Shown in pieces: positions 764-9,639 of a stretch of 37,986 nucleotides of DNA. A program made the translations under genes and the position numbers. The notes below the pieces were generated by a model. That model worked only from the letters and a program-made list of their open reading frames with translations. It was not told the DNA's origin and did not search any database. This DNA comes from Desulfuromonas sp. TF (lineage in GTDB: Bacteria > Desulfobacterota > Desulfuromonadia > Desulfuromonadales > ATBO01): contig NZ_KI421413.1 in NCBI RefSeq assembly GCF_000472285.1, positions 1 through 37,986 on the forward strand. The letters are read 5' to 3'. Numbering within the stretch: the stretch's first letter is position 1; every line of letters starts with the position of its first letter.

Positions 764-1271
764 ATGACAATTTTTTCAGCGATTCTTTCACAAAGGCGGG
801 GATGTCGTTCGGGTTGCGGCTGCTGACGAGATTGCCGTCTACCACCACCTCCTGATCGACGAATTCGGCTCCGGCATTCTTTATGTCCTGGATGATCGAT
901 TTGTAGCCGGTGAACCGGCGCCCTTTCAGCACCTGGGCGGTGATCAGGAGCTGCCCGGCATGGCATATGGCGAAAACGGGCTTGCCGCTCTTGACGAAAT
1001 CGCCAGCAAAGCGCACGGCTTTTTCATCGACCCGCAACTGATCAGGGGAATAGCCGCCGGGGATCAGCAGGGCGTCGTAATTCTCTACGGAAACATCCCC
1101 GACCGCTTTGTCGATCCTGACCTCGGTCCCCTTTTTCTTCCCCTTGACCGTCTTGCCGGCTTCCAGACCCACGTGAATCAATTGGTGTCCCTTGTCCTGA
1201 AAGGCCTTGGCCGGCTCGATATATTCCGAATCCTCGAACAGATTGTCGATAATAACCGCGATCTTTGCCAT
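762..1271 (-). CDS. PfpI/DJ-1 family protein (YhbO/PfpI-like)
   Basis: A 169-aa protein of the DJ-1/PfpI superfamily, a cytoplasmic single-domain class I glutamine-amidotransferase-like fold. Members have been reported as proteases, glyoxalases or protein deglycases. The nucleophile elbow is AICHAGQLL with Cys103-His104, and an acidic residue early in the chain (Glu13/Glu16 in the FEDSEYIEP segment) matches the family Glu that polarises the Cys. The length is typical for YhbO/PfpI. AAAGGAG precedes ATG 1271 at good distance. A TTGCGA/TATAAG promoter lies about 90 bases upstream and a hairpin terminator follows, so it is probably monocistronic. Likely stress or glycation related, which is inferred; the exact reaction cannot be read from sequence. 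Confidence 0.9.
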   Translation of the reverse strand: MAKIAVIIDNLFEDSEYIEPAKAFQDKGHQLIHVGLEAGKTVKGKKKGTEVRIDKAVGDVSVENYDALLIPGGYSPDQLRVDEKAVRFAGDFVKSGKPVFAICHAGQLLITAQVLKGRRFTGYKSIIQDIKNAGAEFVDQEVVVDGNLVSSRNPNDIPAFVKESLKKLS

Positions 1272-1358
1272 GTCCGCTCCTTTCCCGCTGCGTGATAGAT
1301 TTATCGCGTCAGCCAGAACTCGCCCGCGGGCGGTTTGTCTGATGCTCGACCCCTATCA

Positions 1359-1386
1359 CTTATATATCCGGGGACACGTTTCGCAA
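1359..1386 (-). promoter_or_regulatory. Sigma-70-like promoter for the pfpI-like gene
   Basis: On the minus strand TTGCGA (1386-1381) and TATAAG (1364-1359) are spaced by 16 bases. The predicted start of transcription is around 1352, about 80 bases before ATG 1271. Confidence 0.45.
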
Positions 1387-1411
1387 GCCGTGCAGAGAAG
1401 GAAGGAAGAAA

Positions 1412-1445
1412 AACCTTTGTTATCTGCAGATGACGCAGATTCACG
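1412..1445. repeat. Dispersed-type CGCAGAT motif repeat
   Basis: The stretch carries the word GCAGAT/CGCAGA three times in close succession (GCAGATGACGCAGAT, then CACGCAGAG). Sequences of this type, reading roughly as CTGCGTCATCTGCGG on the other strand, are familiar intergenic repeats in many bacterial genomes. The dispersed nature is remembered, not tested. No gene is recognised between 1390 and 1650. Confidence 0.35.
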
Positions 1446-1656
1446 CAGAGAAACCAGGGCAAAATACCGGATTCCGGTTTAATCTTCGTGAAGCTGCTTG
1501 GGTCAGCAGAAAGGCGGACCTGAAGTTCCTGAAGGTTTATGCGACCGGTTTTCGGCGGAGCTCAGGCAAGGATCGACAAGGACCTGCAGTCAGGCGGAAG
1601 GGGTGAGGTGGACTGGGATGAGTTTCTGATGGCCGATGTTCTCTGGAAGAGAGAAA

Positions 1657-1788
1657 TCAGAACCTGTTTTTCCAGGCTTTCTTACGGCGATTGGGCAGAA
1701 CATCGCGGGAGGCGATGAGGTGACTGAGGACGAGTCCGGCACTTACGCCCAAGCAGAAGATGGACGTGTAGATCATCAAATAATTCAC
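1657..1788 (-). CDS. Putative 43-aa single-span membrane protein
   Basis: An otherwise unexplained 700-base spacer holds this short reading frame, starting with GTG 1788. It is preceded by GAGGAA at a workable distance, and a good promoter lies 70 bases further up (TTGCAC, 17 bases, TTATAA). The product has one hydrophobic stretch (residues about 4-26, including SAGLVLSHLIA) followed by a strongly basic tail (RRKKAWKNR). That is the layout of a small inner-membrane protein with a cytoplasmic C-terminus by the positive-inside rule. No family is recognised. The promoter, ribosome site and membrane pattern together make it plausible, but such short frames can arise by chance. Confidence 0.42.
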   Translation of the reverse strand: MNYLMIYTSIFCLGVSAGLVLSHLIASRDVLPNRRKKAWKNRF

Positions 1789-1864
1789 GGGAATTCCTCG
1801 CGAGGCGATAATAGATTATTCAGAGCAGATCGAATTAAAGGCTGAAGCTGCTGTCGAAATGTTC

Positions 1865-3137: not shown

Positions 3138-3746
3138 TCACTGCAGGCGCTGATAGAAGGACGGCTTCAGGTACCCGAACGACTCGATGAACCGGTGGAA
3201 ATCCTCCATTGGAGCCCGGTCGAATTCCCTGTCGGAGGGACGCCACTGAGTAAAATAGAAAGCCACCACCCGCTCTCCCCGGCGGGCGAAAACGACGCGG
3301 ACCAGGACCTTGTGCCGAAGGACCCGCTCGTGCCCGATCGTGTCCGCCTGCAGTGCCTCGCCTTCCAGCGCCCGGACGCGCTGAACCCGTGGCTCATCGA
3401 AATCGATCCGGGCGGCCCACAGAAAGCGGCGGAAGAATTCTTTCTGCCGCTGGTTCAGATCCCGCGAGTAGCCGAAGGGCTCCTCGGCATAGGCCACTAT
3501 CGATTCGCAGGGATAGTTTCCCGGCGTCCCGTGGTCGCAGGCCCGAAAAAAGGCGATGGAGTAATCCTCCTCATCCAGTTCGAGAAGCCGCCAGGGCTCG
3601 GGCATCGGGGAGAATTCGTATTCCTCCTGCCACCTCACCGTCCCCTCGCCGGTGCGCATCCCCGCAAAGGGGTCGGCCGGTGCTCCGGAGGTGGCGCATC
3701 CGGCCAGAAGAAACAGGGCCGCAGTCGTGACCAGTGCACGCATCAT
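3138..3746 (-). CDS. Lipoprotein of unknown function, coupled to the Sec-peroxiredoxin
   Basis: A 202-aa lipoprotein: N-terminal signal with lipobox LLAGC, acylated Cys17, then a soluble periplasm-facing domain rich in Glu/Arg/aromatics (for example PEPWRLLELDEEDYSIAF). No domain is recognised. The start is taken at ATG 3746, preceded by GAGGAGGG. It shares the ATGA overlap with the stop codon of the peroxiredoxin upstream, so translation should be coupled; a second ATG follows immediately. The tight overlap suggests it acts with the exported peroxiredoxin, for example as envelope partner, but that is inference. Confidence 0.78.
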   Translation of the reverse strand: MMRALVTTAALFLLAGCATSGAPADPFAGMRTGEGTVRWQEEYEFSPMPEPWRLLELDEEDYSIAFFRACDHGTPGNYPCESIVAYAEEPFGYSRDLNQRQKEFFRRFLWAARIDFDEPRVQRVRALEGEALQADTIGHERVLRHKVLVRVVFARRGERVVAFYFTQWRPSDREFDRAPMEDFHRFIESFGYLKPSFYQRLQ

Positions 3747-4285
3747 GACCGTCCCTCCTCTGCATGCAGCTTTTTGAGAACCAGCAGGATCTCCCGGTAA
3801 TCGGGCGATCCGTCCTTGATGTAGCGGACCTTCCCCCACATGTCAATGATCACCGTCCTGCGCGCGAACATGGGCGTGCCCTTGTGCTGGGCACCGAAGA
3901 ACATTCCCAGGTAGCCGGTGGTATTGGAGAGCAGGGGAAAGGTCAGGCCCAGATCGTCGGACCAGTGTCTGAGAGTCGGAACGCCGTCATGGCTGACGCC
4001 CGCCACGCGGGCGTTGAAGCGGTCATAGAGGTAGAGGTTCCTCTGATGACCCTCCATTTCCCCCGTTCAGACAGGTGTGAAGGCGGCCGGGAAGAAGGTG
4101 AGGATCAGGTGGTGAAGGCCGTAGTAGTCCTTGTCGTAGTTGACCAGATCCCCATGGGCGCTGACCAGGGAGAAGATCGGAGCCCGCTCGCCGATCACTT
4201 TGGCCGATTCCGGGGCCAGAAGCTCGGCATGGGTCGCGCTCCCCAGGGCAAGAAGGAGGGTGCAGAAAATAAGAATTCGTCGCAT
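3743..4285 (-). CDS. Selenocysteine-containing exported peroxiredoxin (UGA read as Sec)
   Basis: Two adjacent open frames share one phase and are split only by TGA at 4069-4067. Read through, they give a 180-residue AhpC/TSA-type peroxiredoxin. The UGA falls exactly where the peroxidatic Cys belongs: P66-A-A-F-T70-P-V-U73-T-G-E, the Pxxx(T/S)xxC signature. Downstream family features remain intact (SHDG, FPLLSNTTG, RRTVIID). A signal peptide (about residues 1-20, ending THA) predicts export. No Cys occurs in the mature chain, so this would be a one-Sec enzyme needing an external thiol. Fifteen bases after the UGA is a strong SECIS-like hairpin. Selenoprotein peroxiredoxins are known in anaerobes (PrxU of Eubacterium acidaminophilum). 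GGAG precedes ATG 4285. The alternative is a pseudogene with a nonsense mutation. Confidence 0.85.
4021..4051 (-). promoter_or_regulatory. SECIS-like mRNA hairpin downstream of the UGA codon
   Basis: In the peroxiredoxin mRNA (minus strand) GGTCAT pairs with ATGACC. After a single bulged C, AGAGG pairs with CCTCT around the 8-base loop AACCTCTA. That is an 11-bp stem beginning 15 bases after the UGA, with the apical loop about 27 bases away, inside the range usual for bacterial SECIS elements. An alternative upper stem AGAG/CTCT with loop GAAC would place the G that SelB-binding loops normally carry at the first loop position. The pairing is seen directly; the role is inferred. Confidence 0.65.
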
Positions 4286-4396
4286 CGTTAAACTCCTTGA
4301 AAGACGTGCCTTCGCAAATACATTCCGAGGATGGCTATTTAAGTATAGAGCAAACGAACGCGGATACCACCTTTGGTCCTGGTCAGTTCCGAATAT

Positions 4397-5118: not shown

Positions 5119-6621
5119 ATGCCCCTGCATCTGCCCCCCTCCGTCAAAAACTGGACCTCCCTGGCGGGGGTGGTGATCGCCCTGATCAGCCTCTTCATGA
5201 TCGTTTTCCTCTTCGCGGTCACCGTATTTTTCGACGCCCATGCAGCCTATCTCGGTCTGGTGGTCTATATCCTGCTGCCGTCCGTCATGATCGCGGGCCT
5301 GATCCTCATCCCGGTTGGGATGCTGCTCAAAATCCGCCGCGAACACCGGGAGGGGCTCTCCCCCGAACCGGGCTGGCCGAAGGTCGACCTTAACAACCCG
5401 GGACATCGGAACGCGGCCTTGATCTTTTTCGTCGGGACCTCCCTCCTGCTCTTCGCTTCGGCCATCGGCAGCTATGAAGCCTTTCACTATACCGAGTCGA
5501 CGGCCTTCTGCGGGACGCTCTGCCATTCCGTGATGGAGCCCGAGCACGTCGCGCATAAGACGTCCGCCCATGCCCGGGTTGCCTGCGTGGCCTGCCATGT
5601 CGGGCCCGGGGCGGACTGGTACGTGCGCAGCAAACTGTCCGGAATGTACCAGGTCTATGCCGTTCTTACCGATGTCTATCCGCGGCCTATTCCCACCCCC
5701 ATAGAAAATCTGCGGCCGGCCCGGACCGTCTGTGAGCAATGCCACTGGCCGCAGAAATTCTATGCCTATACCTACCGCGCGGAGACCCACTACCTTCCGG
5801 ACGAGAAGAATACCCGCTGGGACATCGGCCTGACCCTGCGCGTGGGAGCGCCCCATTCGGCCGTCGGTTTCGAGGAAGGAATCCACTGGCACATCAACCC
5901 GCAGGTGAAGATCGAATATCTGCCACTGGACGAGAAGAGGGAGCAGATCGCCCGGGTGCGTTATACAAATCTGGAGAGCGGCGAAGTGAAAATATACCGC
6001 AACCCGGCCCTGGCCCAGGAGGGGGGTGAAGCGGGCGAGATGCGCACCATGGACTGCATCGACTGTCACAATCGACCCTCCCACCGGTATCTTCCCCCCA
6101 ACCGCTTCGTCGATAACGCCATGGCCAACGGGAGCATTCCAGCCGATCTCCCCTGGATAAAGGCGGCGACGGTCCCCCTCTGCGAACAGGAGTTCGCCAG
6201 CCGGGAAGAAGCCGAAGAGATCCTGCGCGCAGGGGTCCTGAACTTTTACCGGCAGGAGCATCCGGAGATTCTCGAGCAGCGCATGGCCGATGTCGAAAAG
6301 GCGATCGCCGGCTTCCTGGCGGCTTTCAACGAAAACATCTTTCCTTACATGAAGGCCCGCTGGAGCGCCTATCCCGAACACATCGGCCATCTTGTTTTCA
6401 ACGGCTGCTTCCGTTGCCACGCGGAGGGCTTCGCCACCGAAGAGGGTGAACCGATCCGCTCCGGGTGCAATGACTGTCACCTGATCAGCAGCCAGGGAAC
6501 CCCCGGCAGCATGGAATACGCCCCGATGGGAGAATCCCTGGACTTCCGACACCCCGAGGATATCGGCGAGGCCTGGAAGGAGATGTTGTGCTCCGACTGT
6601 CACAAAGGGCTTCTACCTTAA
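5119..6621 (+). CDS. Seven-heme NapC/NirT-family inner-membrane cytochrome c (ImcH-like)
   Basis: A 500-aa protein with three N-terminal membrane helices (about 15-38, 44-70, 99-119) and a periplasmic domain holding seven heme sites. These are CGTLCH 131-136 (CX3CH), CVACH 156-160, CEQCH 205-209, CIDCH 313-317, CFRCH 430-434, CNDCH 450-454 and CSDCH 491-495. The segment HSVMEPEHVAHKTSAHAR and CHVGPGADWYVRSKLSG are characteristic of NapC/NirT quinol dehydrogenases. Size, three helices and seven hemes resemble ImcH of Geobacter sulfurreducens, which passes electrons from menaquinol to periplasmic carriers for high-potential extracellular acceptors. Orthology is inferred. Ribosome site GGAGA precedes ATG 5119. 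The gene stands alone between a divergent methyltransferase and the formate dehydrogenase operon. Confidence 0.88.
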   Translation: MPLHLPPSVKNWTSLAGVVIALISLFMIVFLFAVTVFFDAHAAYLGLVVYILLPSVMIAGLILIPVGMLLKIRREHREGLSPEPGWPKVDLNNPGHRNAALIFFVGTSLLLFASAIGSYEAFHYTESTAFCGTLCHSVMEPEHVAHKTSAHARVACVACHVGPGADWYVRSKLSGMYQVYAVLTDVYPRPIPTPIENLRPARTVCEQCHWPQKFYAYTYRAETHYLPDEKNTRWDIGLTLRVGAPHSAVGFEEGIHWHINPQVKIEYLPLDEKREQIARVRYTNLESGEVKIYRNPALAQEGGEAGEMRTMDCIDCHNRPSHRYLPPNRFVDNAMANGSIPADLPWIKAATVPLCEQEFASREEAEEILRAGVLNFYRQEHPEILEQRMADVEKAIAGFLAAFNENIFPYMKARWSAYPEHIGHLVFNGCFRCHAEGFATEEGEPIRSGCNDCHLISSQGTPGSMEYAPMGESLDFRHPEDIGEAWKEMLCSDCHKGLLP

Positions 6622-6751: not shown

Positions 6752-7599
6752 ATGAGTACAACGCCGGCAAAACCAGCCGCACGATCTCTCTTCGTCCCCG
6801 TCGACTGCCGGATCGTGTCGATCACCGAGCTGACTCCTCAGGAAAAGCTCTTCAGGGTAGAGTTTCCTGGCGGGGCCGACCTCGGTCATGTTCCCGGTCA
6901 GTTCGTGCAGGTCTCCATCCTCGGTCTCGGAGAGGCGCCGATCTCGGTCGCCAGCTCACCGACCCGGAGGGGATCCTTCGAACTGGGGGTCCGCCGGGCC
7001 GGAACCCTGACGGGGGCGATGCACCGCCTGAAAGAGGGGGCGGTCATCGGCATCCGCGGTCCCTTCGGCCGCCCCTTCGATCTGGAGCGGATGGGGGGGA
7101 AGGATCTGCTGCTGATCTCGGGGGGCTGCGGCCTGGCGCCGATGCGCTCGCTGATCCAGTACTGCCAGGACAACCCTGACGATTTCGGCCGCATCACCAT
7201 CCTTTACGGGGCCAAGAGCCCCGAAGACATGCTGTTCAAGGATGAGATCCGTGACTGGGAAGCCTCCGAGCGCTACGCCTGCGCCGCCACCGTCGACGAC
7301 GTCCCCGGCGGATCCTGCTATGACGGCCCCGTCGGCCAGGTCACCCGGCTGATTCCGCCCCTTCGGATCGACCCCGAAAAGACCGTGGCGGCCATCGTGG
7401 GACCTCCCGTCATGTACCGCTTCGTTATCGAGGAGCTGAAGAAGAAGGGGCTTGCCGAAGACCGGATCGCCGTCTCCCTGGAACGGCAGATGCGCTGCGG
7501 CGTGGGCAAGTGCGGCCACTGCACCATCGAGCATCTCTACTGCTGTCTCGACGGGCCGGTCTTCTGGCTGAACGAGGTGAGCGGCCTCAGGGGGGCGTT

Positions 7600-7603
<4 letters not shown>
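6752..7603 (+). CDS. FAD/NAD(P)-binding diaphorase subunit (sulfhydrogenase gamma / HydG-AsrB type)
   Basis: A 283-aa ferredoxin-reductase-type electron-transfer subunit. The N-terminal flavin barrel (about 12-110) carries VPGQFVQVS and GPFGRPFD, and the NAD(P)-binding half begins at SGGCGLAP (123-130). A C-terminal [2Fe-2S] motif CGVGKCGHC (C249, C254, C257, with C264 or C265 as fourth ligand) is the signature of the HydG/AsrB and PyrK-like group. It would exchange electrons between NAD(P)H and the iron-sulfur chain of the two following proteins. Its stop overlaps the next start (GTGA). There is no clear ribosome site before ATG 6752, so the start carries some doubt. Confidence 0.88.

Positions 7604-9635
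<2,032 letters not shown>

Positions 9636-9639
<4 letters not shown>

Follow-up and report, generated by a model that had tools for sequence, protein, structure and literature searches.

A conserved in-frame UGA very probably encodes selenocysteine in a putatively exported, lipoprotein-paired peroxiredoxin of Desulfuromonas sp. TF

Does an in-frame TGA in a peroxiredoxin gene of Desulfuromonas sp. TF end that gene, or is it read as selenocysteine (Sec)? The question arises in a stretch of 37,986 nucleotides (RefSeq assembly GCF_000472285.1, contig NZ_KI421413.1, positions 1 to 37,986), called the window here, in which a minus-strand frame starts at 4285, meets a TGA at 4069-4067 and runs on in the same frame to a second TGA at 3745-3743. 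An earlier, sequence-only reading had proposed that 3743-4285 encodes an exported peroxiredoxin with Sec at its peroxidatic position, followed by a hairpin resembling a selenocysteine insertion sequence (SECIS) and coupled to a lipoprotein gene. The frame and its in-frame TGA lie where that reading put them, and the analysis reported here indicates that the stop very probably encodes Sec. Positions are those of the window, and both genes, with all features described within or before them, lie on the minus strand.

Read through the TGA, the gene (3743..4285) comprises 180 codons, with UGA as codon 73 (4067..4069) and the TGA at 3743-3745 as its terminal codon. The 180-residue product carries an AhpC/TSA domain (PF00578) at residues 31-156, in a match that spans the TGA (E value 5e-21; 75.4 bits against a gathering cut-off of 26), and the TGA sits exactly at the peroxidatic position of the PxxxTxxC motif, which in the window ends in TPVU. 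An AlphaFold2 (AF2) model with Cys replacing Sec has a peroxiredoxin fold, with a predicted local distance difference test (pLDDT) score of 92.9, and it matches numerous peroxiredoxins, Bcp4 and AhpE among them, at Z of about 23-24.

Orthologs were gathered from a contig scan (26 loci) and from 22 close TGA-bearing matches among 195 relatives, which include the window gene and a partial gene. Removal of 11 duplicates from these 48 loci left 37 non-redundant peroxiredoxin genes, the window's among them; in L043 the contig stops shortly after the TGA, so that this gene is incomplete. Codon 73 is TGA in 37/37 and a Cys codon in none. In a second sample, 395 genomes drawn from the phylum, 20 held a strong peroxiredoxin match (E < 1e-60), and all 20 had the TGA; 14 of these have sequences already represented among the 37, and the other six (L084 and L093-L097) add to them. 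Cys does occupy the column in more distant homologs (L066, L131-L133 and L102-L107). Both sides of the TGA evolve as coding sequence: the median ratio of nonsynonymous to synonymous polymorphism (pN/pS), over 35 comparisons with the window gene, was 0.37 downstream and 0.46 upstream.

These data bear directly on the alternative that the TGA is an ordinary stop, either in a pseudogene or arising where a Cys codon was misread in sequencing, and that the open reading frame (ORF) past it is a gene of its own. The standard code does yield two short ORFs here, the downstream one with an ATG at 4057. Set against this are the TGA at the same codon in all 37 orthologs, coding constraint on both sides, a profile match that spans the stop, and Sec machinery in the genome. 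We therefore rejected a pseudogene or sequencing error, and for practical purposes the conserved TGA refutes the ordinary-stop explanation, to which we assign a negligible probability.

The machinery of Sec synthesis and insertion, whose genes the sequence-only reading had named as a check, is present in full. The window's genome, an assembly of 4.4 Mb and 17 contigs with a listed completeness of 100%, contains selA (616.9 bits, cut-off 267.9), selB (381.5 bits, cut-off 242.25), selD (359.5 bits, cut-off 125) and a tRNA-Sec, the selC product (80.9 bits, gathering cut-off 47), which ARAGORN found too. The selD gene itself has an in-frame TGA near its N-terminus, read as ...SSGUAAK, so SelD is likely a selenoprotein and the genome very probably uses Sec elsewhere. 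This selD (L136, about 769-1850, minus strand) adjoins selB and selA. Two of the refuting conditions named by the sequence-only reading, a genome lacking selB or selC and homologs lacking both Cys and Sec at the column, were checked, and neither applies. A genome-wide reassignment of TGA was also considered and is unlikely: TGA is also the terminal codon of the peroxiredoxin gene in 35 of the 36 orthologs with a complete 3' end, and a tRNA listing of a 13-kb stretch contains the tRNA-Sec, with the anticodon TCA.

If UGA73 is decoded as Sec, a downstream RNA element would be expected to direct it, and the sequence-only reading had described an 11-bp hairpin 15 bases past the UGA with a loop about 27 bases away. 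That structure was recovered by folding and by recoding of the gene, and five further pairs were added to it. The SECIS-like hairpin (4015..4056) consists of an inner stem of 11 bp with one bulged C (4051-4021), starting 15 nt past the UGA; an 8-nt apical loop, AACCUCUA (4039-4032), beginning 27 nt past it; and five outer pairs (4056-4052 with 4019-4015) that lengthen the stem to 16 bp. Folding of 4021-4069, the stretch proposed for inspection, gave a divided result: these 49 nt on their own are unremarkable (z = -0.78; 41/200 shuffles fold equally well), and a 69-nt stretch with flanks is clearly more stable than expected (z = -3.45; 0/200 shuffles as good).

A stricter comparison used synonymous recodings, which keep the protein. 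Native free energy lay below the mean of the recodings in 37/37 orthologs, with a median z of -2.7 and a weakest value of -1.2 (L062). At 14 other offsets, scored in 36 of the 37 genes, median z ranged from -1.2 to +0.7, so that the UGA position was the strongest of 15; the lowest control offset, at +10 codons, overlaps the hairpin. Synonymous diversity fell to 0.23 at codons +1 to +18, compared with 0.50 upstream and 0.56 downstream. The predicted fold departs partly from the common one in five orthologs (L022, L026, L027, L052 and L056). Beyond the 37, Sec genes (n = 17, including L084, a close ortholog) had a median z of -2.07 and Cys genes (n = 10) one of -0.09 (one-sided p = 0.00035, with related rows); two of the Cys genes also scored low (L066, -1.55; L105, -2.04). 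The published bacterial SECIS (bSECIS) model, as set out in a passage of PMC13188914, specifies a loop of 3-9 nt, an upper stem of 4-16 bp, a spacing of 16-37 nt, a minimum free energy of -7.5 kcal/mol or lower and a G in the loop. The window's element has an 8-nt loop, a stem of 11 bp (16 with the outer pairs), a UGA-to-loop spacing of 27 nt and energies of -14.1 kcal/mol (49 nt) and -23.1 kcal/mol (60 nt).

Codon choice within the stem is coupled. Codons 79 (Gly79, GGT in the window, 4049..4051) and 88 (Asp88, GAC in the window, 4022..4024) occur as GGT with GAC in 23 of the 37 genes and as GGC with GAG, which encodes Glu, in 12; two genes have GGG at codon 79, and the mixed pairs GGT with GAG or GGC with GAC were seen in 0/37. 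The pair GGC/GAC occurs in the Cys outgroup genes L104 and L105. Genes in the GGC/GAG state have a predicted helix whose register is displaced by a bulge. Changing one codon of the pair cost a mean of 3.9-4.6 kcal/mol from GGT/GAC and 1.7-2.4 kcal/mol from GGC/GAG; changing both cost 2.2 kcal/mol from GGT/GAC and gained 2.4 kcal/mol from GGC/GAG. At codons 82 and 85, Arg82 AGG accompanies Tyr85 TAC in 23 genes and AGA accompanies TAT in six; of the remaining eight, one combines AGG with TAT and seven do not encode Tyr at 85. On a tree of 63 peroxiredoxins, the 79/88 coupling among Sec genes needs four changes per codon, and independent pairs were concordant in 3/3 cases for 79/88 and in 2.8 of 3 on average for 82/85.

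What kind of protein would the read-through product be? Its first 20 residues, MRRILIFCTLLLALGSATHA (4226..4285; cleavage site placed by eye), form a putative signal peptide that contains the only Cys of the window protein (C8), which agrees with the earlier proposal that the mature protein has none. A hydrophobic N-terminal stretch is present in 37/37 orthologs, and Cys beyond the N-terminal signal region in 0/37 (L043 being incomplete). Among these peroxiredoxins a strict lipobox was found in L018 only; by eye, five others (L022, L024, L043, L056 and L062) have a looser LLAC, ALAC or VLAC site. The active-site motif, P66-AAF-T70-PV-U73 (4067..4090), is conserved: across the 32 orthologs that were aligned, P66, T70, residue 73 and R142 do not vary. 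R142 aligns with an Arg of AhpE, and we take it to be the catalytic active-site Arg. A Shine-Dalgarno-like AAGGAG (4293..4298) lies 7 nt upstream of the start ATG. No NCBIfam model, PrxU included, attains its cut-off for the window protein, and it is therefore plausible that automatic annotation splits or loses the gene.

The second gene of the pair encodes a lipoprotein of 202 residues with the lipobox LLAGC17 (3138..3746). Its start ATG (3746-3744) overlaps the peroxiredoxin stop TGA (3745-3743) as ATGA, and the 3' end of the peroxiredoxin gene contains a Shine-Dalgarno-like GAGGAGGGA (3752..3760) for it. The sequence-only reading had suggested such a pairing for the window; it proves to be a fixed feature of the orthologs, with the lipoprotein directly downstream of the peroxiredoxin in all 36 that have downstream DNA. 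The lipoproteins of the other orthologs are 34-63% identical to the window's. The ATGA overlap is available in 35/36 (the exception is L034) and a Shine-Dalgarno-like motif precedes the lipoprotein start in 35/36; these starts come from a script, and some of the lipoprotein genes could begin further downstream. In a 33-row alignment the lipobox C17 column is invariant, and L029 has no clear lipobox. Searches of Pfam gave no meaningful match for this lipoprotein. Across the phylum sample it was found in 21/395 genomes, namely the 20 with the strong Sec peroxiredoxin and one other, G340. In G340 (L128, 168-578) the contig ends 171 bases from the start of the lipoprotein match, in which the first 74 profile positions are missing. 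At most eight candidates were scored per genome in this sample, which means that absence of either protein there is not absolute.

Distant relatives of the same lipoprotein also stand beside other peroxiredoxin-like proteins. In L066, L131, L132 and L133 the neighbor has Cys at the column (ANAFGPNC), and in L134 it has TGA (ANAFGEGU); in all five the peroxidatic motif no longer has its Pro and Thr, and the chemistry of these proteins may differ from that of the window clade. A further TGA-bearing peroxiredoxin group, labeled 'Geobacter-type' here (L067-L073, L098-L101 and L135), includes L067-L073 at about 40% identity to the window protein. In four of its members (L068, L069, L071 and L072) a hairpin of quite different sequence occurs at the same place. 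The fetched flanks of this group, and of the Cys proteins L102-L107, gave no lipoprotein match. In a careful tree the presence of the lipoprotein needs one change (support 72/77), with long branches meeting at L134 and the Cys group; in a quick tree Sec/Cys needs two changes.

The sister modules invite a different functional assignment, in which the window protein would be an exported selenium-based thiol or persulfide oxidoreductase instead of a peroxidase; a lipoprotein retained beside proteins that have lost PxxxT, as in L066 and L131-L134, would fit such a role. The window clade, however, keeps P66, T70, Sec73 and R142 invariant, and its nearest folds are peroxiredoxins, so we regard an oxidoreductase function as quite improbable.

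The overlapping stop and start suggest translational coupling of the two genes, and this raises the possibility that UGA73 is mainly a selenium gauge, with the lipoprotein well translated only after ribosomes pass UGA73 and with the lipoprotein, as much as the peroxiredoxin, as the regulated output. The ATGA overlap in nearly all orthologs, and the Sec peroxiredoxin in 20 of the 21 phylum genomes that have the lipoprotein, would accord with such a switch. On the other hand, the widespread Shine-Dalgarno-like motif before the lipoprotein start would make stand-alone translation possible, the lipoprotein persists in the Cys-type sister modules, which have no UGA, and ATGA overlaps are common in bacterial operons. 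A role mainly as a switch is thus unlikely. Somewhat less doubtful, and put forward here as a tentative idea, is a selenium-gated envelope module in which the peroxiredoxin and a lipoprotein of a new family would act as a single unit, lipoprotein translation would depend on Sec insertion at UGA73 and the lipoprotein would dock or recycle the peroxiredoxin, replacing a resolving thiol. If so, selenium supply would set the amounts of peroxiredoxin and lipoprotein alike.

The structure of the lipoprotein provides a hint of moderate strength as to its fold, without functional implication. The AF2 model (pLDDT 92.1) resembles PsbP, Mog1, SciW and LpqN, with matches at Z up to 11.2 and Foldseek E values down to 1e-4. 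Two extra Cys are present in the lipoproteins of the window and of most Desulfuromonadales-type members, and these prompted consideration of the lipoprotein as electron donor, with the pair resolving the selenenic acid of the peroxiredoxin. The pair is missing, though, in Syntrophaceae-type and other deltaproteobacterial members and in L020 and L026, all of which keep the Sec peroxiredoxin. Because many members lack it, the pair was rejected as a universal resolving thiol or general electron donor; any such role would be lineage-specific at most, and we consider this explanation very improbable.

Taken together, the conserved UGA, coding sequence on both sides of it, the Sec machinery, the hairpin with its coupled codons and the fixed gene pair support, with high probability, a cell-envelope 1-Sec peroxiredoxin in which UGA73 is decoded through SelB, tRNA-Sec and the hairpin, with the lipoprotein assisting. 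From this we infer Sec insertion, export, peroxidase chemistry, an external reductant and a role for the lipoprotein, as follows. SelB and tRNA-Sec would decode UGA73 as Sec under the direction of the hairpin just downstream, and the signal peptide would export the product. Within an active site like that of AhpE, Sec73 would then take the part of the AhpE Cys and attack peroxide. Because the peroxiredoxin has no resolving thiol, an external reductant would have to act on the resulting selenenic acid, either an exported thiol protein or a small molecule such as sulfide. The most likely role of the lipoprotein would be to anchor, dock or assist the peroxiredoxin at the membrane.

Several observations weigh against this reading. 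Sec insertion is predicted here from sequence, and export is predicted from N-terminal hydrophobicity only. The bSECIS model expects a G at one of the first two loop positions, and the loop (AACCUCUA, in the predicted fold) has none there; Rfam, too, gave no match to a SECIS family. A subset of bacterial SECIS elements, according to a passage of PMC13188914, fails that model. Three Sec genes outside the 37 (L067, L070 and L099) fold weakly. Evidence from covariation is slight: changes on both sides occur in one or two stem pairs, which shuffles equal (426/500 are as high where the count is one pair), the covariation score of 0.044 is matched, exceeded or approached by four of six slid versions (three at 0.058-0.070), and the RNAalifold covariation term is only -0.26. 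Independent coupling events are few, with three pairs on supported branches and a sign test p of 0.25, a test that cannot reach significance with so few pairs. The fold match of the lipoprotein is moderate as well, its top three matches (Z up to 11.2) having root-mean-square deviations (rmsd) of 3.2-3.8; for the 12 matches at E <= 0.001, the template modeling (TM) score to the query is 0.42-0.49.

This Sec peroxiredoxin family is patchy in distribution. Peroxiredoxin matches as such, mostly distant, were obtained in 166/195 relative genomes at E 0.001 and in 110/395 phylum genomes at E 1e-20. A plasmid search returned 62 records matching the peroxiredoxin, all below 60% identity; the ten displayed are 27-33% identical and annotated mostly as ordinary redoxins or peroxiredoxins. 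Apart from the lipoprotein, no further clear gene recurs across the whole family in the fetched flanks, which are uneven and down to about 1.5 kb long. Two opposite-strand clusters (19 and 17 loci) overlap both genes and look like antisense ORFs, and further neighbor clusters are confined to sub-lineages, with up to 10 loci. Three ORF families, which include a Cys-rich small protein and a PIWVGLPEA protein and are not shared with the window, recur ahead of the peroxiredoxin gene, at distances of up to about 2 kb, in L030, L033, L034, L036, L037, L041 and L042.

Elsewhere in the window, on the plus strand, a multihaem c-type cytochrome gene with several CxxCH motifs (5119-6621) is followed by an oxidoreductase-like gene (6752-7603) and then by a gene for a formate-dehydrogenase-like molybdopterin protein (7510-9639); judged by family resemblance, the three may form a formate-linked electron chain. 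The molybdopterin protein has Cys in ARLCHASTVVG, although the genome decodes Sec; this Cys would correspond to the Sec of E. coli FdhF.

The system has several uses beyond this locus. It would place selenium chemistry in the envelope in a mature protein without Cys, which raises the question of its reductant, and a lipoprotein family without a Pfam model offers a concrete candidate partner. The hairpin, strongly conserved and codon-coupled yet without the standard loop G, is a useful test case for SelB recognition, and the Cys-using sister modules beside the same lipoprotein permit a direct comparison of Sec with Cys.

How, then, does the pair relate to known systems? Peroxiredoxins with TxxU Sec sites (PrxU, PF00578) are established, as a passage of PMC13188914 describes, and PMC1794560 lists Sec peroxiredoxins for Geobacter metallireducens, Syntrophus aciditrophicus, Anaeromyxobacter and others. 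For Desulfuromonas soudanensis WTL, a table in PMC12013277 seems to give a total of 13 known selenoprotein genes, which the accompanying passage does not name, and a Sec peroxiredoxin gene may already be one of them. In a literature search limited to open-licence papers, mainly their listings and passages, no paper was recognized as describing this peroxiredoxin-lipoprotein pair. What is new here is a putatively exported, Cys-free Sec peroxiredoxin subfamily with a dedicated lipoprotein; TxxU Sec peroxiredoxins as such are known. Like PrxU, the window protein is an AhpC/TSA protein with Sec at the peroxidatic position of PxxxTxxU; unlike PrxU, it scores 30.4 bits on the NCBIfam PrxU model NF040737, whose cut-off is 270, and it is predicted to be exported, is Cys-free when mature and has a fixed lipoprotein partner. 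Prx-SUH (NF045827, CxxU) differs in motif, the window having TPVU and a mature protein without Cys, and its model was not among the window protein's NCBIfam matches at 0.001. Compared with bSECIS elements, the window stem-loop has similar placement (15 nt after the UGA, with an 8-nt loop 27 nt away) and a strong stem, and it differs in the missing G of its predicted loop. The lipoprotein shares a predicted fold with PsbP/Mog1-like proteins (PsbP, Mog1, LpqN, DcrB and SciW), but no sequence relationship to them was found and function is not transferable.

Another related system is the 1-Cys enzyme AhpE (Rv2238c), the window protein's best PDB sequence match and a near-best fold match (Z 24.2, rmsd 1.4). 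Both lack a resolving Cys, and the window protein has the Phe before the active-site Pro (F65) and the aligned Arg (R142); it differs in having Sec for Cys, a putative signal peptide and the lipoprotein partner. As for membership in an AhpE type, the fold Z ties with Bcp4 and others, and F65 of the window is Val in several orthologs. In Prx6-type peroxiredoxins the position before the active-site Pro holds an active-site His, in contrast to the Phe or Val of the 37 orthologs. According to PMC12697902, that active-site His is specific to the subfamily, and the rate constant for reaction with HS- exceeds 1e8 per M per s in oxidized Prx6-type enzymes, compared with about 1.4e3 for AhpE. With Phe or Val at this position, the window protein would group with AhpE in respect of sulfide reactivity.

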